Positions 11 through 29,689 of a stretch of 40,802 nt of DNA are shown here, piece by piece. The DNA lies in assembly GCA_024653205.1 (NCBI GenBank), contig JANLFO010000021.1, positions 1 to 40,802 on the forward strand, written 5' to 3'. The position numbers and the translations under genes were made by a program. Below the pieces are notes generated by a model. The model worked only from the letters and a program-made list of their open reading frames with translations, was not told the origin of the DNA and did not search any database. This DNA is from Clostridia bacterium (lineage in GTDB: Bacteria; Bacillota; DSM-521; Neomoorellales; SLTJ01). How positions within the stretch are numbered: position 1 is the first letter of the stretch; each line of letters opens with the position of its first letter.

Positions 11-68
11 GCGAGCACCCGGTACCGCCAGTCAACTCAAGTTAACTCGAAAGTGAGGATAACTCAGT
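11..68 (+). repeat. Partial copy (tail) of the dispersed palindromic repeat
   Basis: The stretch carries the repeat-family terminal motif GAGCACCCGGTACCGCC and ends with GAGGATAACTCAG, the same tail seen at 17,390-17,420. It lies directly downstream of nifK. Bases 69-154 hold only GC-rich sequence that could fold but has no U tract, so no intrinsic terminator is called and no gene is seen. Confidence 0.6.
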
Positions 69-154: not shown

Positions 155-1633
155 CTACAACTGCTGGGTGCGGTCGTCGGGATACTGGTAGTCCAGCAGG
201 GCGTTGACTATTTCCATCAGCAGCAGCTCCCCGCCGCGGTAGCCCACTATGGGCCGCTTCTGGTAGCCGAAGCGGTCGTAGATGGGAAAGCCCACCCGCA
301 CCAGGGGCACCCGCAGCTCCCGGGCGATGTCCACCGCGCGGGAGTTGCCGAGGATCAGGTCCAGCCGCGGCTGCTGCTTCAGGTACTCCTCGAACTCGAA
401 CAGGTCGCCGCCGTTGAGGATCAGCGGGGCCTCGCCCCGGTATTCGGCCTGGGCCAGGAGGCGTTCGGCGTCGTGCGTGAAGGTCTTGCTGGCGGTGCCG
501 CTGGCCAGGGCCACCGGTTCCATGCCCATTTCTAACAGAAAACCGGTGACGCCCAGCACCGTGTCCGGGTCCCCCATAACCGCCACCTTCTTCATCATGG
601 TGTGGTGGAGGGCATCGGCCAGAAAGTCTATCAGCCGGCCCCGCTCGTCCAGCAGCGCCCGGGGAACCGGCCGTCCGGTAAGCTCGGACAGCCGGGCGAG
701 AAATTCGTCCGTGGCCCGCACCCCGAGGGGCGGGGGCCCTATCACCGCCTTGACCCCGTACCTCCTTTCCAGGTAGACGGCCCCCGCCTGGCCGGCGTGA
801 GGCTGCAGGGCAAAGGTGGCCAGAGAGTTGGCCATGTCCCGGATAGCCTCCACCGGGGTGCCGCCCGGAGGATAGTAGGGCATGGTGGTGGGCGGCGCCA
901 GGGGGGCGTCCAGGGTGTCGCTGATGTCAAAGAGCACGATGCCCTCGATCTCCATGTGCCGCAGGAGGTGCTTGATTTCCCGGATGTCTCCCGGATATAA
1001 GAGCCCGGGAATGATGTTCACCCTGCCGTTGGGCCGGCCGCCAGGCACGGCCAGGCTTTCCACGAAGGCGCGCGCGGCGCGGTTGTAACCCTCCACGTGG
1101 GAGCCGGCGAAGCTGGGGGTGTTGACCAGGACGATGGGAATCCGCTCTGCCTTCTCCGTCCCGATTTCCTTGCGCAGTTGAGATCGGGCCATCTTGATGA
1201 AGCTGACCATGTCGTCGCCGATGATCTCGCTGGAGCAGGTGGTTACCACCCCGATCAGCTCCGGCCAGTAGCGCAGCACCAGATTCCGGAGGCCCTCCAC
1301 CAGGTTACGCCGGCCGCCGAAGACCGCGGCGTCCTCGTGAAAGGAGGCGGTGGCGATGGTGGCCGGCTCCTTGAACACCCGGCAGAAGGTGTAGCGCACG
1401 TAAGTGGTGCAGCCCTGGGCCCCCTGGACGAAAGGTATTGCCCGCCTCACCCCCAGCACCGCCCACATGGCGCCCAGGGGCATGCAGGTGCGGTTGGGGT
1501 TGATCACCACCGCCCGGTTGGCCGAGGGAACCAACTCCGGCGGCCGGGGGATGTACTCCGGCGAAGCCGGCACCTTCTGGATTTTGATCTGATCGTACGG
1601 CAGGCCGGTAATGGGGATTTCTACCGTGCTCAT
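155..1633 (-). CDS. nifK: Nitrogenase beta subunit (NifK-type)
   Basis: Beta chain of the catalytic dinitrogenase, which with NifD forms the P-cluster and supports N2 reduction in the cytoplasm. The three P-cluster cysteines are visible as Cys50 (RTCMPLGA), Cys75 (GAQGCTTY) and Cys133 (TTCSSEIIGDD), with the SFHEDAAVFGG motif at about residues 97-107. At 492 residues it is close to NifK/VnfK sizes, with an N-terminal extension of about 40 residues. The ATG at 1,633 was chosen because it overlaps the nifD stop as ATGA (translational coupling) and has a GGAGG about 13 nt upstream. The longer open frame to 1,696 lies inside nifD. No nifE, nifN or nifB follows within the window, so cofactor-assembly genes must be elsewhere or beyond the edge. 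Family assignment is certain. The metal type is not decided by sequence. Confidence 0.97.
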   Translation of the reverse strand: MSTVEIPITGLPYDQIKIQKVPASPEYIPRPPELVPSANRAVVINPNRTCMPLGAMWAVLGVRRAIPFVQGAQGCTTYVRYTFCRVFKEPATIATASFHEDAAVFGGRRNLVEGLRNLVLRYWPELIGVVTTCSSEIIGDDMVSFIKMARSQLRKEIGTEKAERIPIVLVNTPSFAGSHVEGYNRAARAFVESLAVPGGRPNGRVNIIPGLLYPGDIREIKHLLRHMEIEGIVLFDISDTLDAPLAPPTTMPYYPPGGTPVEAIRDMANSLATFALQPHAGQAGAVYLERRYGVKAVIGPPPLGVRATDEFLARLSELTGRPVPRALLDERGRLIDFLADALHHTMMKKVAVMGDPDTVLGVTGFLLEMGMEPVALASGTASKTFTHDAERLLAQAEYRGEAPLILNGGDLFEFEEYLKQQPRLDLILGNSRAVDIARELRVPLVRVGFPIYDRFGYQKRPIVGYRGGELLLMEIVNALLDYQYPDDRTQQL

Positions 1634-3087
1634 AATCTGGCGCCTTCCTCCTCCTCGGTCCTGAGCCCGGCCCCGAAGCCCCACTGCAGCCTCCACACCG
1701 GGGCGTAGAGGGCCTGGTAGATGTCCCGGGCGAAATTCACCAGGCCCACAAACCCGGCGTAGGGCCCCTTCTCGTAGGAATGGGAGTTGAGGGTGGGAAC
1801 GCCCAGCTTGCGGGCGATGTACTTCTCCTTCAAGCCGGTGATAAAGAGGTCGGGCCTCTCGGTCTTGAGCATCTCTTCGATTTCGAACTCGTTGGGGTTA
1901 TCGATGACCAGCATCCCCTCCGGCGCCCGGGCGTTTATCTTCTCGTAGTCGTCCTCGTGGGCAAAGGTGCAGGCCACGGCCACCACGGTCATTCCCAGCT
2001 CTTCCATCACCCTGATCCAGTGCCACACCCGCGGCCCCCCCACGTATATGGCCACCCGCTTTCCCGCCAGCCTTTCCCGGTAAAAGGCCAGGCTCCGCTC
2101 CACCCGTTGCCGCTCCTCGGCGATCACCTGCTCCGCCCGCTCTTCCAGGCCGAAGAAGGCGGCCGTCCTGCGCAGGGCTTCGGCGGTCTGGTGCAGGCCG
2201 AAGAGCGAAACCCGCACGAAGGGGATGTCAAAGCCGTCCTCAAGCATGTGGGCGATGTACTCGGCGGAACGCTGGCAATGCACCACGTTGAGCTTTACGT
2301 CCGGCATCTTCACCAGATTTTCGATGCGCTCGTTGCCGCTGAACACCGCCGCCACCCGCAGGCCGATCTTTTCAAACAGGGGCCTTACCACCTTCAGGTC
2401 CCAGTCGATGTTGTACTCGCCGATGAGGCAGATGTCGTAAGGGGTTTTCTCCTCTTCCGCCATCTTCAGCTCCGGGCGGCGCTCCCGAAGCTGGCGGATC
2501 TGGCGGTAGAACTGGGTGTTGAAATCGTGGTGCCCCTTGGACTGGCTCACCCCCGAGCAGCCCGGAGACTGCGAGGTAAAGACCAGCTTGCCGGTCCTCC
2601 TTTCCACCTGTCGGGCCACCGCCTGCACGTCGTCCCCTATCAGCCCGGTGGTGCAGGTAGTAAAGATTATCAGGCCCTTGGCCTCCGGGAACAGGCGTAT
2701 GGCCTCCAGGCAGGCCTGCTCCAGCTTCTTTACGCCGCCGAAGACCACGTCCTTTTCCTGCATGTCGGTGCACAAACAGTAGCGCCGGTTAAAGGCCACG
2801 TTGGTCAATCTGGCGGGCGTGGCCCAGGGGTAGAAATCCGAAAGGTGGCGGCGCGTGCCCCAGGTGTACCAGGCACAGCCCACCGGGGCGTGCACCACCT
2901 GCAGCACGTCGGCTATGGGCCCGCCCACCACCCCGCGGGCGCCGGCGAAGGCGCAACCCCGCTCGGTCATGTCCCCGGGAACGGTGGCAAGGTTGCAGGC
3001 CGGAATTATGGGTTCCCGCTCGGTGCGGTATATGTGCTTTTGCCTCTCCGGAATAGCCCGGTCGCACTCCATGCTGACGAAGGGCAT
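1630..3087 (-). CDS. nifD: Nitrogenase alpha subunit, VnfD/AnfD-like in several motifs
   Basis: Alpha chain holding the active-site cofactor. P-cluster cysteines are Cys45 (ERGCAFAG), Cys71 (APVGCAWYTW) and Cys145 (TTCTTGLIGDD). Cofactor ligands are Cys271 (VVHCQRSAEY) and His436 (NSHSYEKGPY). Gln182 and His186 of SPGCSGVSQSKGHH match substrate-channel residues. The N terminus (ECDRAIPERQKHIY), the GGPRVWHW motif at 350-357 and the His436-to-GPY spacing recall remembered VnfD/AnfD sequences more than classical NifD. The 485-residue length also suits that group. Gene order is nonetheless nif-type: nifK overlaps by 4 nt and no delta-subunit gene intervenes. An ATG start with GGAGG 9 nt upstream is convincing. 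It most resembles the poorly characterised Firmicute/Methanocaldococcus group of nitrogenases. This grouping is inference without a tree. Confidence 0.96.
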   Translation of the reverse strand: MPFVSMECDRAIPERQKHIYRTEREPIIPACNLATVPGDMTERGCAFAGARGVVGGPIADVLQVVHAPVGCAWYTWGTRRHLSDFYPWATPARLTNVAFNRRYCLCTDMQEKDVVFGGVKKLEQACLEAIRLFPEAKGLIIFTTCTTGLIGDDVQAVARQVERRTGKLVFTSQSPGCSGVSQSKGHHDFNTQFYRQIRQLRERRPELKMAEEEKTPYDICLIGEYNIDWDLKVVRPLFEKIGLRVAAVFSGNERIENLVKMPDVKLNVVHCQRSAEYIAHMLEDGFDIPFVRVSLFGLHQTAEALRRTAAFFGLEERAEQVIAEERQRVERSLAFYRERLAGKRVAIYVGGPRVWHWIRVMEELGMTVVAVACTFAHEDDYEKINARAPEGMLVIDNPNEFEIEEMLKTERPDLFITGLKEKYIARKLGVPTLNSHSYEKGPYAGFVGLVNFARDIYQALYAPVWRLQWGFGAGLRTEEEEGARL

Positions 3088-3109: not shown

Positions 3110-3472
3110 CTACAGGGCCGCCGGCCCCTTTTCGCCGGTGCGTATGCGCACCGCTTCCTCCACCGGGCAGACGAATATGCGGCCGTCGCCGATCTGCCCG
3201 GTGCGGTTTACCTTCATTACGGCCGCCACCACCAGGGGCACGTCCGCGTCCTCCAGCACCACCGAAACCATCCGCTTGGGGACGTACTTCATGCCCCCTT
3301 CCTGCCTCTGAAGCTCGGGGCTCACGGCAAAGGTTACCTCCCCGGCAATGCCTTTTTGCTTGCCCCTCCCCAGCACTTTCCAGGCGGTCATTCCCGGAAA
3401 CCCCAAAGCCTCCAGCACTCTCTTGGTAGCCGTCATCTTGCTCGGCCGGATGATGGCCACTATTTCCTTCAC
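3110..3472 (-). CDS. nifI2: Nitrogenase-associated PII protein NifI2
   Basis: PII-family regulator that, in methanogens, acts with NifI1 to inhibit dinitrogenase until 2-oxoglutarate relieves it. The chain has the PII start (KEIVAIIRPSK), a T-loop region longer than in GlnB (after GRGKQKGIAG) and the C-terminal TGQIGDGRIFV ATP/ADP-binding motif. It lies between nifI1 and nifD, the classical place for NifI2. The GTG at 3,472 is preferred: AGGAGG sits 8 nt before it, while the upstream GTG at 3,481 directly abuts the Shine-Dalgarno. This gives 120 residues. No uridylylation tyrosine motif of the GlnB type is evident. The gene is 22 nt from nifD and 12 nt from nifI1, so one operon is very likely. 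Confidence 0.93.
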   Translation of the reverse strand: MKEIVAIIRPSKMTATKRVLEALGFPGMTAWKVLGRGKQKGIAGEVTFAVSPELQRQEGGMKYVPKRMVSVVLEDADVPLVVAAVMKVNRTGQIGDGRIFVCPVEEAVRIRTGEKGPAAL

Positions 3473-3484
3473 CGGCTCCACCTC

Positions 3485-3802
3485 CTAGAGCCCGGCGGCG
3501 CCGGTGCGCACGGTGTAGGCCTCTTCTACCGGGGAGATAAAGATCTTACCGTCCCCAAAGCTTCCGGTGTAGGCCGTCCTGGAGATAATGCCCACCACCT
3601 CTTCGCACCGGTGATCCTCCACTACCAGCAGGAGCATCACCTTGGGCAGCTCGTCATAGTAGATGCCCCCGACGTGGAGCCCTTTCTGCTTGCCGCGCCC
3701 CACCACCTCCATCTTGGTTAGGGCCACGTATCCGCTCTCCGCCAGGGCGTCTACCACTTCCTCGCTCTTCTCGGGCCGGATGATGGCCCGGATCATTTTC
3801 AT
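3485..3802 (-). CDS. nifI1: Nitrogenase-associated PII protein NifI1
   Basis: Partner of NifI2 in post-translational switch-off of nitrogenase when ammonium is present, by family knowledge from methanogens. The 105-residue chain begins MKMIRAIIRPEK and carries the GRGKQKGLHVGG segment at the base of the T-loop and TGSFGDGKIFI near the C terminus, both typical of PII nucleotide and 2-oxoglutarate sites. The ATG at 3,802 was chosen because AGGAGG lies 8 nt upstream. A GTG three codons earlier lies too close to that site. It follows nifH after 58 nt and precedes nifI2 by 12 nt, matching the nifH-nifI1-nifI2-nifD-nifK order of methanogens and some Clostridia. Confidence 0.94.
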   Translation of the reverse strand: MKMIRAIIRPEKSEEVVDALAESGYVALTKMEVVGRGKQKGLHVGGIYYDELPKVMLLLVVEDHRCEEVVGIISRTAYTGSFGDGKIFISPVEEAYTVRTGAAGL

Positions 3803-3860: not shown

Positions 3861-4945
<1,085 letters not shown>

Positions 4946-4991: not shown

Positions 4992-5345
4992 TCAGAGGGC
5001 GGCGGCTCCCTCTTCGCCGGTGCGGATGCGGATGGCATTGGCAATGGGATAGACGAAAATCTTACCGTCCCCGATTTCGCCCGTGCGCGCCACCTCGGCG
5101 ATGGCCGCAGTTACCGGCTCCAAGTCGCTTTCCTCCACCACCAGCTCCACCTTGATCTTGGGCAGGAAGGGGATCACGTAGGTGCGGCCGCGGAACTGCT
5201 CCTGCCAGCCCCCCTGCCTACCTCTTCCCCGCACCTCGGTCACGGTCATGGAAGAATATCCCCGCCGCCCCAATTCCTCCACCAGGGCCTCCACTTTTTC
5301 CTCCCGCAGGATAACCTCTACCTTGTAGAGCCGGGCCTCTGCCAT
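4992..5345 (-). CDS. glnK: PII signalling protein GlnK/GlnB, paired with Amt
   Basis: Trimeric PII protein expected to bind 2-oxoglutarate and ATP/ADP and to plug the adjacent ammonium channel. The 117-residue chain has the T-loop sequence FRGRTYVIPFLPK, whose tyrosine aligns with the uridylylated Tyr51 of enterobacterial GlnB/GlnK, and TGEIGDGKIFV near the C terminus. It therefore differs from NifI1 and NifI2, which lack that T-loop. The ATG at 5,345 has GGGAGG 9 nt upstream; a TTG at 5,354 is in frame but less likely. It starts 5 nt after the amt stop, so amt-glnK is an operon. Whether Tyr51 is modified here is unknown. Confidence 0.93.
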   Translation of the reverse strand: MAEARLYKVEVILREEKVEALVEELGRRGYSSMTVTEVRGRGRQGGWQEQFRGRTYVIPFLPKIKVELVVEESDLEPVTAAIAEVARTGEIGDGKIFVYPIANAIRIRTGEEGAAAL

Positions 5346-5350
5346 GCCGA

Positions 5351-6820
5351 TCAACCTCCCAGGAAGGTGGTACGCCGCAGGGCAAACTCCGGATAGGCCG
5401 GGGTGCCGTGCTCGGAGAGGTCCAGGCCCTGCAGCTCTTCCTCCGGCGACACCCGGATGCCCATGGCCAGATCCAGGAGCTTAAACAGCAGCAGGCCCAG
5501 GCCGAAGCTCCAGGCGGCGGCTACCCCGGCGCCGGCCAACTGGGCCAAGAGCTGCCCTGCCCCGCCGCCGTAGAAAAGCCCAACCGCATAGGGCGGCTCC
5601 AGGCTGTAGAGGCCGTAGGTGCCGTCGGCGAAAAGCCCCACGCTGATCAGGCCCCACAGGCCGCAGAAGCCGTGCACGCTAACCGCGCCCACCGGGTCGT
5701 CCACCCGCCGGGCCTCCAGCCCGTAGACCCCGGCCACCAGGATGACCCCGGCCACGGCGCCGATCACCACCGCCGCCCAGGCCTCGATCCAGGCCGCCGG
5801 AGCGGTCACCGCCACCAGGCCTCCCAGCACCCCGTTCAGGGCCATGCCCAGGTCCCAGCGCCGCGTCTTCAAGTAGACCAGGAGCAGGGCCACCAGGCAG
5901 CCGGCGGCGGCCGCCAGGTTGGTGTTCACCGCCACCACCGCCGTCCGCAGGTGGTGGGCGCTGAAGGTGCTGCCCGGATTAAACCCGAACCAGCCGAACC
6001 ACAGGATGAAGGTGCCCAGAGCCGCCAGGCTCATGCTGTGCCCGGGAATGGCCTGGGGCTTGCCCTCCCGGCCGATTTTGCCGTAGCGCGGCCCCAGGAC
6101 CAGGGTGCCGGCCAGACCCACCAGCCCGCCTATGGTGTGCACCACGCCCGAGCCGGCAAAGTCCAGGTGCCCCAGCCCCCAGGGGAGCTGCGAAAGCCAA
6201 CCTCCGCCCCACACCCAGTGGGCGTAAACCGGGTAGATGAAACCGCTTACCACCAAGGAATACATCAGGTAGGCGGGAAACTTGAGCCTCTCCGCCACCG
6301 CGCCGGACACGATGGTGGCGGCAGTGCCGGCGAACACCAACTGCCAGAAAAAGTCCAGATATGTGCCCACGTCGTAAGCCTCGCCGTGCAGGAACCACTT
6401 GCCGGCGCCGATCAGGCCCAGGTGGTCTGACCCCTTAAGAAAACCGTAGCCTACGGCGAAGAACACCAGCGAGGCCACCACGAAGTCCAAGAGGTTCTTG
6501 CTCATGAGGTTGGTGACGTTCTTGGCCCGGCAAAAGCCGGCCTCCACCAGGGCGAACCCGGCCTGCATGAAGAACACCAGGAAGGCGCAGACCAAAACCC
6601 AAACGTAGTCCACGGCCGCCGCCGGATTGGCCTCAATAGTGGCGGCCCCGCCCGGATCCTGGGCCAGGGCCGCGGCAGGCCATAGGCTCAAGAGAAGAGC
6701 CATCAGGACGAAACCTGCCGCCCAACCGGCGGCGGCCCGCCGGAGCAGTTGTAGCCCGGCGTCGCTCACCCCTATCCGACCCGGTCCCATCAATACCCTA
6801 TCCCGACTGGCCCCCCGCAC
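5351..6820 (-). CDS. amt: Ammonium transporter (Amt/AmtB family)
   Basis: Inner-membrane channel for ammonium uptake. The 489-residue product starts with a hydrophobic signal-like segment ending in AAALAQ, as in AmtB, followed by about eleven transmembrane helices. The two pore histidines are visible in FAGSGVVHTIGGLVG and SVHGFCGLWG. The GTG at 6,820 was chosen because GGGAGGG precedes it by 7 nt. The open frame extends to a TTG at 6,841 with no ribosome site. The C terminus keeps the RVSPEEELQGLDLSEHGTPAY segment that GlnK contacts in relatives. glnK follows after 5 nt. Expression is probably controlled by the leader at 6,987-7,173, with an activator site, promoter and ANTAR-type hairpins. 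Confidence 0.97.
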   Translation of the reverse strand: MRGASRDRVLMGPGRIGVSDAGLQLLRRAAAGWAAGFVLMALLLSLWPAAALAQDPGGAATIEANPAAAVDYVWVLVCAFLVFFMQAGFALVEAGFCRAKNVTNLMSKNLLDFVVASLVFFAVGYGFLKGSDHLGLIGAGKWFLHGEAYDVGTYLDFFWQLVFAGTAATIVSGAVAERLKFPAYLMYSLVVSGFIYPVYAHWVWGGGWLSQLPWGLGHLDFAGSGVVHTIGGLVGLAGTLVLGPRYGKIGREGKPQAIPGHSMSLAALGTFILWFGWFGFNPGSTFSAHHLRTAVVAVNTNLAAAAGCLVALLLVYLKTRRWDLGMALNGVLGGLVAVTAPAAWIEAWAAVVIGAVAGVILVAGVYGLEARRVDDPVGAVSVHGFCGLWGLISVGLFADGTYGLYSLEPPYAVGLFYGGGAGQLLAQLAGAGVAAAWSFGLGLLLFKLLDLAMGIRVSPEEELQGLDLSEHGTPAYPEFALRRTTFLGG

Positions 6821-6986
6821 GTTCGATCCCTCCCTAGCCAAGATGAGATGATTGCCCGAAGTGCGCGCTGCCCCGTTCCATCACCCCCTTCCAAACGCGG
6901 AACCCGGCTAGGCCGCTGTGCCTCCCGCCGTATCCCGGCCGTAAACGCTCGGGGCCCCAAGGCGCAGGATTAGTCTCCCGCACCGG

Positions 6987-13123: not shown

Positions 13124-13702
13124 TCACTTCTTCCCCTTAAGTTCGTTGGCCAGGATTATGGCCTCGGCTATGGCCCGCATGGGCAGGCAGCGGTCCATGC
13201 TCTCCTTCTGGATCCGGCGGTAGGCTTCCTGCTCGCTGAGGCCCAGGGTCTGCATGAGAATCCCCTTGGCCCTCTCCACCACCTTGCGGGTCTCCAGCTT
13301 CTCCTTAAGCCGGTTGACCTCCTCCTCCAGGGCGCTCACCCGCCGCCAAGCCGCCAGGCAGGTTTGAAGGCTGGACACCAGCAGGACCTTACGCACCGGC
13401 TTGGGTACCAGGCCGATTACCGCTCCGGGGTAGCGCTCCTCCAGCTCCTGCGGGCAGGAGCTTCCTAGAAGCAGCACCGCCCCGATGTGCTCGCCCGCGG
13501 CCACCCGGAGGACCTCCCACCCACCGGGCAGGTCTTCGTCCAGGATTACTACTTCCGGGGACAGGGCCCGGATCCGCCGCAGGGCTTCGGCGGCGCTGTC
13601 CGCCTGCCCCACCAGGTGGTACCCCTCCCGGAGCAACACCGCCTCCACGCGGCGCCGCAATTCGCCTTCGGTAGCGGCGAGGAAAACCTTGGCCCGGTAC
13701 AT
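13124..13702 (-). CDS. ANTAR-domain RNA-binding antitermination regulator with degenerate receiver
   Basis: Predicted to bind the dual-hexaloop RNA leaders in this window and block termination. The 192-residue chain has a receiver-like domain (about 1-115), a coiled-coil linker (RRVSALEEEVNRLKEKLETR) and a C-terminal ANTAR domain (ERAKGILMQTLGLSEQEAYRRI, then LPMRAIAEAI). The receiver keeps the phospho-acceptor-like Asp (VVILDEDLP) and the Lys of LVPKP. The acidic pair expected after the first strand reads AATEG, so phosphorylation may be altered. It is similar in position to nitR-type genes near glnA in Clostridium. The ATG at 13,702 has AAGGAGG 5 nt upstream. The open frame to 13,786 is leader. 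Confidence 0.92.
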   Translation of the reverse strand: MYRAKVFLAATEGELRRRVEAVLLREGYHLVGQADSAAEALRRIRALSPEVVILDEDLPGGWEVLRVAAGEHIGAVLLLGSSCPQELEERYPGAVIGLVPKPVRKVLLVSSLQTCLAAWRRVSALEEEVNRLKEKLETRKVVERAKGILMQTLGLSEQEAYRRIQKESMDRCLPMRAIAEAIILANELKGKK

Positions 13703-13784
13703 AGACGCCTCCTTGCGCAGAACCGCGATCTCCTCTACCCTAACAACCCCGATTGCCACCTCCTGCGCCGGCCATCCGGCCAGC

Positions 13785-13936
13785 AAAAAAGCTGCCTTGC
13801 GGCAGCCTAATTAGGTCTTCTGCCCGGTGAGGACGCCGTTGTCCTCCTGGAACCCTATCCCGTTTTACTCGAGAACTATTTTAGGGCCCCGGCCCCGAGA
13901 AAGTAAAGGGGGCAGGGCCATGTATACTGTATAAAA
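13785..13936 (-). promoter_or_regulatory. Promoter, upstream palindrome and hexaloop leader of the ANTAR gene
   Basis: Minus sense: palindrome TATACAGTATA (13,933-13,923, centre 13,928), -35 TTTACT (13,907-13,902), 18-nt spacer, -10 TAAAAT (13,883-13,878). Hairpin GAGGAC-AACGGC-GUCCUC follows (13,846-13,829; loop A1 and G4), then an intrinsic terminator GCUGCC-GCAA-GGCAGC with UUUUUU (13,806-13,785). An upstream segment GGCAG can pair with CUGCC of the terminator as an alternative fold. A standard first hexaloop was not found. The layout is nearly the same as the glnA3 leader and suggests autoregulation. Confidence 0.75.
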
Positions 13937-17170: not shown

Positions 17171-17420
17171 CTTTCACGTTGGCGGACGGTACCGGGTGCT
17201 CTCCTGAGTACATTGGCACCTCGCCGGGAACCGGACCAGGCGAGGGCGACCACGAAGGCAGGCCGTAGGCCATGGACGGCCGAAGCGGCGGGGCGCCACG
17301 GACGGCGCCTCCGCCGGGAGCCTGCCGGAGCGCGAAGACCGAGCCGTAGCTCGGTCGGCGAGGTGACAGTACGAACGGAGAGCACCCGGTACCGCCTAGG
17401 GCAAACTGGGGATAACTCAG
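17171..17420 (+). repeat. Full copy of the long imperfect-palindrome repeat
   Basis: It starts near CTTTCACGTTGGCGGACGG, contains GTACCGGGTGCTC and the core GCCATGGACGGCCGAAGCGGC, which is shared with the copy at 13,941, and ends GAGCACCCGGTACCGCC then AACTGGGGATAACTCAG. The terminal and inner arms are inverted. It lies between aspA and hydF and has no credible gene. Confidence 0.8.
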
Positions 17421-29083: not shown

Positions 29084-29662
29084 TCAAGTTCCAAGATGCC
29101 CTTCCAGTACCGCCCTGGCCACCCTCCGCAGTGGTAGCCCGCGATTCATACTTGCCCGTCGCAAGAAGGCGTAGGCTTCTGCCTCACTCCAGCCTCGCGT
29201 TTGCATGAGCAAACCCTTTGCCCGTTCCACCAAACGCCGGGTTTCTAGTTCTTCTCTTAGTTTGCGGTTCTGGAGCGCCACCTCTCGGTAGCGCCTAAAA
29301 GTAGAAATAGCAATCTCTAGAGCGGGAATCAGCACTTGTTCGGTCAGCGGTTTGGGCAAAAGAGCCTGCACTCCCGCCTCCCGAGCCTCTTCCAACACAA
29401 ACCAGTTGAGCTCTTCGGCAGTAAGGACTACCGCGCATACCATTTGCTCCTCCACTACCCGGGCTACCTCCAGGCCGCTCCGCAAGGGCAGTTGCCAGCT
29501 GATTACCGCTGCCTCCGGCTCCCGTTGAAAGATGAGCTGGGCGGCACTGCGTCCGTCTCCAACGCTCCCTACAACCAAGTACCCGTAACGCTGCACTGCC
29601 TCTCTGATCTCTCGTCGGGTAGCTTCATCTGGGTCGGCCAAGATGAGCCGCGCGCCGTGCAT
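29084..29662 (-). CDS. ANTAR-domain regulator with pseudo-receiver
   Basis: Second predicted RNA-binding antiterminator. The 192-residue chain has a receiver-like domain (LILADPDEATRREI at the start, LLPKPLTEQ with the conserved Lys), a helical linker and an ANTAR domain (VERAKGLLMQTRGWSEAEAYAFLRRASMNRGLPLRRVARAV). The residue at the phospho-Asp position is Ser (AAVISWQLP where DxxLP is expected), so it cannot be phosphorylated in the usual way. It starts about 27 nt after mgtE and precedes the glnA3 control region, so it is probably co-transcribed with mgtE. Neither the ATG at 29,662 nor the one at 29,677 has a strong ribosome site. Targets are probably the hexaloop leaders in this window. 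Confidence 0.88.
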   Translation of the reverse strand: MHGARLILADPDEATRREIREAVQRYGYLVVGSVGDGRSAAQLIFQREPEAAVISWQLPLRSGLEVARVVEEQMVCAVVLTAEELNWFVLEEAREAGVQALLPKPLTEQVLIPALEIAISTFRRYREVALQNRKLREELETRRLVERAKGLLMQTRGWSEAEAYAFLRRASMNRGLPLRRVARAVLEGHLGT

Positions 29663-29689
29663 GCGTGACCACCACATCCACCGCCCGGC

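Follow-up and report, generated by a model that had tools for sequence, protein, structure and literature searches.

A probably molybdenum-dependent nitrogenase of the Firmicute/Methanocaldococcus clade with a cysteine P-cluster ligand that close relatives encode as selenocysteine

Which metal does a nitrogenase use when its alpha subunit carries motifs of the vanadium (V) and iron-only (Fe-only) enzymes and no delta subunit accompanies it, and how is its cofactor assembled? This question is raised by the nif cluster in a draft genome of a Clostridia bacterium (2.46 Mb in 51 contigs), in which a stretch of 40,802 nucleotides, the entire contig C21 (here, the window), encodes the nitrogenase alpha subunit NifD. 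The explanation that we favor, and regard as likely, is that the window encodes a nitrogenase of the Firmicute/Methanocaldococcus (F-Mc, or Nif-III) clade whose molybdenum (Mo) cofactor would be made through NifE without NifN, and whose P-cluster ligand Cys45 would have reverted from selenocysteine (Sec). Since the V and Fe-only nitrogenases are the sister group of this clade, and since it does without a scaffold protein that is considered essential, its metal and its assembly path bear on the origin of nitrogenase metal use.

Placement of the NifD and its metal-site residues

The nifD reading frame, the motifs quoted for it in a preliminary description of the window, the nifI1-nifI2 pair and a 4-nt overlap, in which the nifK start codon (ATG, 1633-1631) sits within the nifD stop (ATGA, 1633-1630), were all confirmed in the sequence. 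The window NifD passed the NCBIfam cut-offs of TIGR01862 (545.1 vs. 486.05) and TIGR01284 alt_nitrog_alph (540.5 vs. 512.8), and fell below the equivalog cut-offs of nifD (TIGR01282), VNFD and ANFD (460, 452 and 406 bits vs. 654, 823 and 874, respectively). In a sample of 398 genomes, its matches in 20 others were near full length at 59-88% identity, a similarity far beyond what chance would give. The best solved structure was 9spz (670 bits, ~60% identity, aligned almost end to end), followed by VnfD (419 bits), AnfD (382 bits) and, lower, the Mo-NifD chains. The alpha chain of 9spz/9sq3, which is most like Methanothermococcus NifD (74% identity), falls in the same tree clade as the window.

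In a NifD tree with 80 rows and NifE as the root, the 28 F-Mc rows formed one clade (support 99/90) with the window deep inside it; its sister group consisted of VnfD/AnfD and a single Methanobacteriaceae sequence (98/97). Enzymes of the Chloroflexota and Methanoperedens types lay beside the F-Mc and Vnf/Anf groups, and the 14 ordinary Mo-NifD rows formed a separate clade that did not include the window. Only one VnfD was included in the tree, methanogen rows of the Mo type were few, and a long-branch NifE row was misplaced. The preliminary description had proposed such a tree and assigned the gene to an uncharacterised Firmicute/Methanocaldococcus type. That assignment stands, as the window lies outside classical Mo-NifD and its NifD is, by this placement, a new member of a known, little-studied, heat-loving lineage. 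The label “uncharacterised” has become less apt: a related structure has been deposited, nitrogen fixation is known for the member Methanocaldococcus FS406-22 (PMC8809328) and nitrogenase activity for Caldicellulosiruptor (PMC8209448). The window system shares with the F-Mc enzymes of Desulfotomaculum, Desulforudis, Caldicellulosiruptor and Methanocaldococcus the clade, the missing nifN, the retained nifE, the lack of a delta subunit, the pocket residues and the position of nifI1/nifI2 between nifH and nifD.

The residues used for metal classification were examined in columns that follow sequence L119, which run two below the Azotobacter vinelandii numbers near the N-terminus; the numbers given here are motif-corrected. 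The window NifD is of the Mo type at alpha Ala65, Gly69, Arg96, Lys426 and Lys428, and V/Fe-like at Trp361, Asn440 and Tyr444, while alpha-380 is Thr, as in other uncharacterised enzymes, and never Lys. It shares the ERGC and WHW motifs, Tyr444 and Asn440 with VnfD/AnfD (5n6y, 8boq, 8oie), and GGPRxWHW and GVSQSKGHH with VnfD only. Unlike the window NifD, VnfD/AnfD have no Gly69, Arg96, Lys426 or Lys428, and have instead Lys380, Lys96, Gly428 and a delta subunit. The cluster ligands are present in both subunits (NifD Cys45, Cys71, Cys145, Cys271 and His436; NifK Cys50, Cys75 and Cys132). The same mosaic of residues was described by McGlynn 2013 (PMC3578447) and read there as indicating the iron-molybdenum cofactor (FeMo-co), and both that study and Garcia 2020 (PMC7216921) classed the clade as Mo-like. 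The window enzyme is thus probably Mo-dependent. The motifs it has in common with VnfD/AnfD would reflect shared ancestry, and a reading of them as pointing to V or Fe in the cofactor is not supported.

Some other loci deserve mention. In L055 and L056, from Methanolinea and Methanoregulaceae metagenome-assembled genomes, archaeal NifDK are nested within the Firmicute F-Mc subclade, which suggests interdomain transfer or misbinning; NifE was not found in the fetched flanks of either. A decaying nif cluster on the single contig of L035 (genome G013) has an intact nifD, a nifK fragment and no nifH, nifE or nifB nearby. Genome G108 (L045/L140) encodes an F-Mc nitrogenase together with an Fe-only-type system with AnfG.

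Cofactor assembly without NifN

No genome among 21 (that of the window and 20 relatives) had a protein that passed the nifN cut-off. The matches below it were mostly NifK itself; two were other paralogues of NifK, including the AnfK of G108, and no match at all came from G013. Only three PF00148 genes occur in the window genome, encoding NifD, NifK and a NifE-like protein, and nifE, nifB and nifV are all present on contig C37; because the window ends 154 bases after nifK, these genes were invisible to the preliminary description. A gene for ModA is also present. The lack of nifN in F-Mc was likewise noted by Garcia 2020 (PMC7216921), FS406-22 fixes nitrogen without it (PMC8809328), Roseiflexus makes FeMo-co without NifEN (PMC11573651), and a pairing of NifE with NifK has already been proposed in the literature for nifN-less taxa.

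A path can be proposed in which NifB would build the 8-iron core and NifE, in the absence of NifN acting either by itself or with NifK as its partner, would exchange one iron for molybdenum and add homocitrate from NifV. The finished cofactor would then pass into NifDK, to which NifH would supply electrons through the P-cluster, and NifI1 with NifI2 would shut the enzyme down in the presence of abundant ammonium. The Cys45 ligand would be a return from the selenocysteine that the nearest relatives still encode.

A second NifK-like gene was observed in locus L046 (3000-4334, genome G002) between nifK and nifE, the usual place of nifN. This gene belongs to the NifK/AnfK branch (59% to the L050 NifK), apart from canonical NifN, and its product could be an independent NifE partner.

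A simpler, proto-type cofactor, either NifB-co or a Mo-free core of iron only, was allowed for nifN-less taxa by Garcia 2020 (PMC7216921). We consider this unlikely for the window enzyme, as nifE, nifB and nifV are all present and as Roseiflexus makes true FeMo-co without NifEN (PMC11573651). Still less credible is a V-type, Fe-only-type or multi-metal nitrogenase that never had a delta subunit. The sister-group position of VnfD/AnfD and the VnfD-like Trp361, Asn440, Tyr444, GGPRVWHW and SGVSQSKGHH speak for it, but the Mo-type residues at 69, 96, 426 and 428, the Thr at 380 and scores that miss the VNFD and ANFD cut-offs by hundreds of bits speak against it. So does the search for AnfG/VnfG (PF03139), which had no match in the window genome, in agreement with the earlier observation that a delta subunit is lacking, nor in 19 of the 20 related genomes. 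That the proteins form a nitrogenase-like reductase with a different substrate is hardly tenable, given the adjoining nifI1/nifI2, glnK and amtB, the P-cluster and cofactor ligands, the NCBIfam nitrogenase subfamily cut-offs passed, and clade members that fix nitrogen (PMC8809328, PMC8209448).

Selenocysteine and cysteine at a P-cluster ligand

Unlike its nearest F-Mc relatives, whose NifDs are 83-88% identical and have an in-frame TGA (Sec) at this position, the window NifD has Cys45 at the alpha-62 equivalent. In a first sample, six relatives each had one in-frame TGA, exactly at the P-cluster cysteine codon; a wider sample held 15 Sec rows and 30 Cys rows, some species being represented more than once because they came from two collections. 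That the TGA stems from a frameshift, a pseudogene or a sequencing error was rejected, as the same invariant Cys is affected in 15 rows, the frames are intact afterwards and SelB was found in all six Sec genomes tested. Nor is a Sec NifD a novelty, as Howard 2013 (PMC3760896) reported it in three species (D. audaxviator, D. kuznetsovii and T. indicus), supported by SelA, SelB, SelD and a bacterial selenocysteine insertion sequence (SECIS), and the family is entered as one annotated selenoprotein in a 2026 review. The window NifD resembles these three in its clade, beta-Ala92 and the absence of nifN, and differs from them in its TGC (Cys) codon.

The most useful new point, with precedent since 2013 checked in the open-licence literature, is that the exchange between Sec and Cys has been repeated. 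On a NifD tree computed with codons 40-60 left out, the Sec and Cys states need at least six changes, whereas beta-92 needs one. The window falls in a 10-row clade with seven Sec members (99/99) and, inside that, in a 7-row clade with four (97/94). The window genome keeps selB and tRNA-Sec, and loss of the machinery is therefore not the reason for its Cys. Howard 2013 (PMC3760896) described Sec62 as covarying with beta-Ala92. Strict covariation does not hold in our sample, as beta-Ala92 occurs in all 41 readable rows of the subclade (15 of 15 Sec rows and 26 Cys rows; L035 was unreadable), and beta-92 is Ser in L049, L050, L061 and the other nitrogenases examined. Either beta-Ala92 arose before Sec and permits it, or it was left over from an ancestor with Sec.

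The Sec relatives have a conserved hairpin after the TGA (CCCGC-GGGGUC-GUGGG), and between their two deep groups the third codon positions of the hairpin agree at 0.75, compared to 0.47 in the rest of the gene, from pooled pairs that are not independent. In the Cys members nested among Sec rows (L034/L159, L156, L158 and the window) the stem is mostly kept, each being altered in the stem or loop. Because few codons are involved and single tests on Cys members were not significant, these remnants are only suggestive of Sec ancestry. Separately, the Desulfovirgula-type Sec NifDs of L052 and L151 have Asp at the alpha-69 equivalent (codon 52), otherwise Gly in the clade, and a shifted SECIS-like loop.

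A reversion of the window Cys45 from selenocysteine is nonetheless probable. We lean towards a history in which one F-Mc subclade, with beta-Ala92 for Ser, gained Sec early at alpha-62 and lost it several times, the window enzyme having returned to sulfur while retaining beta-Ala92 and the Sec machinery. Near-identical Sec and Cys enzyme pairs are a natural one-atom P-cluster swap that is directly measurable and that model diazotrophs do not offer.

Several points weigh against the explanation favored here, that of an F-Mc enzyme with a Mo cofactor built through NifE and a reverted Cys45. A set of 38 columns distinguishes Mo enzymes from V/Fe enzymes in our sample; the window residue is of the Mo type in 10 of them, of the V/Fe type in 14 and of neither type in the other 14, and at the remoter diagnostic columns V/Fe-like residues outnumber Mo-like ones. 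Howard 2013 (PMC3760896) cautioned that the metal content cannot be read from pocket residues. The role of ModA may lie with other molybdo- or tungsto-enzymes. The proposed action of NifE with NifK is deduced from the absence of nifN, and the nifK-nifE junction falls in an assembly gap. The direction from Sec to Cys is drawn from parsimony and a weak hairpin remnant, and the third bases of the window have no excess match to the SECIS (4 of 6 in the core vs. 65% elsewhere).

Gene layout and the assembly gap

The cluster in the window is laid out as glnK / nifH-nifI1-nifI2-nifD-nifK (Table 1). In an AlphaFold model, confidence was low in the region of the P-cluster loops (residues 33-55 and 68-117), and the model was kept out of the argument.

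Table 1. Features of the nif cluster in the window.
Feature	Position	Strand	Remarks
nifD, alpha subunit, F-Mc / Nif-III nitrogenase	1630-3087	-	485 aa; ATG at 3087
nifK, beta subunit	155-1633	-	492 aa; Ala72 = beta-Ala92 (codon 1420-1418); P-cluster Cys50, Cys75, Cys132
nifI2, PII-like nitrogenase regulator	3110-3481	-	
nifI1, PII-like nitrogenase regulator	3485-3802	-	ATG at 3802
nifH, nitrogenase iron protein	3861-4688	-	ATG at 4688; 454 bits to TIGR01287
glnK-type PII protein	4992-5354	-	
amtB, ammonium transporter	5351-6841	-	start uncertain
nifD codon 45, TGC (Cys)	2953-2955	-	equivalent to A. vinelandii alpha-Cys62, P-cluster ligand; TGA (selenocysteine) in close relatives
Counterpart of the bacterial SECIS hairpin of Sec relatives	2911-2955	-	stem still pairable; loop GGGGUG, not GGGGUC
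Arm of dispersed inverted-repeat element	11-29	+	at contig end, 126 bases past nifK; partner arm at C37 end, just before nifE

In relatives nifH-I1-I2-D-K-E-B is contiguous, nifV being next in most, and nifE follows nifK directly in 15 of them. In the window genome C21 stops beyond nifK and nifE-nifB-nifV begin at the end of C37, each of these two contig ends carrying one arm of a dispersed repeat. The arm had 59 matches in the genome at up to 2 mismatches, compared to 0 for a reversed control, and ten arm pairs were inverted and 193 bp apart. Since the arms at the C37 end and the C21 start are oriented as one pair, the gap is probably ~150 bases of one element. A nifN hidden in it is unlikely, based on this usual spacing of two arms and on the order of nifK and nifE in the 15 relatives.

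The dispersed element is ~210 bp with inverted ends. A copy lies at 17185-17396 of the window, single arms are found at 11, 8962, 14158, 39646 and 40761, and several arms lie at contig ends. An Rfam search of the window gave no matches. Among its glutamine synthetase / glutamate synthase genes are two response regulators (13124-13786, with an ANTAR domain by Pfam, and 29084-29677, similar by eye), which hint at RNA-level control of nitrogen metabolism.
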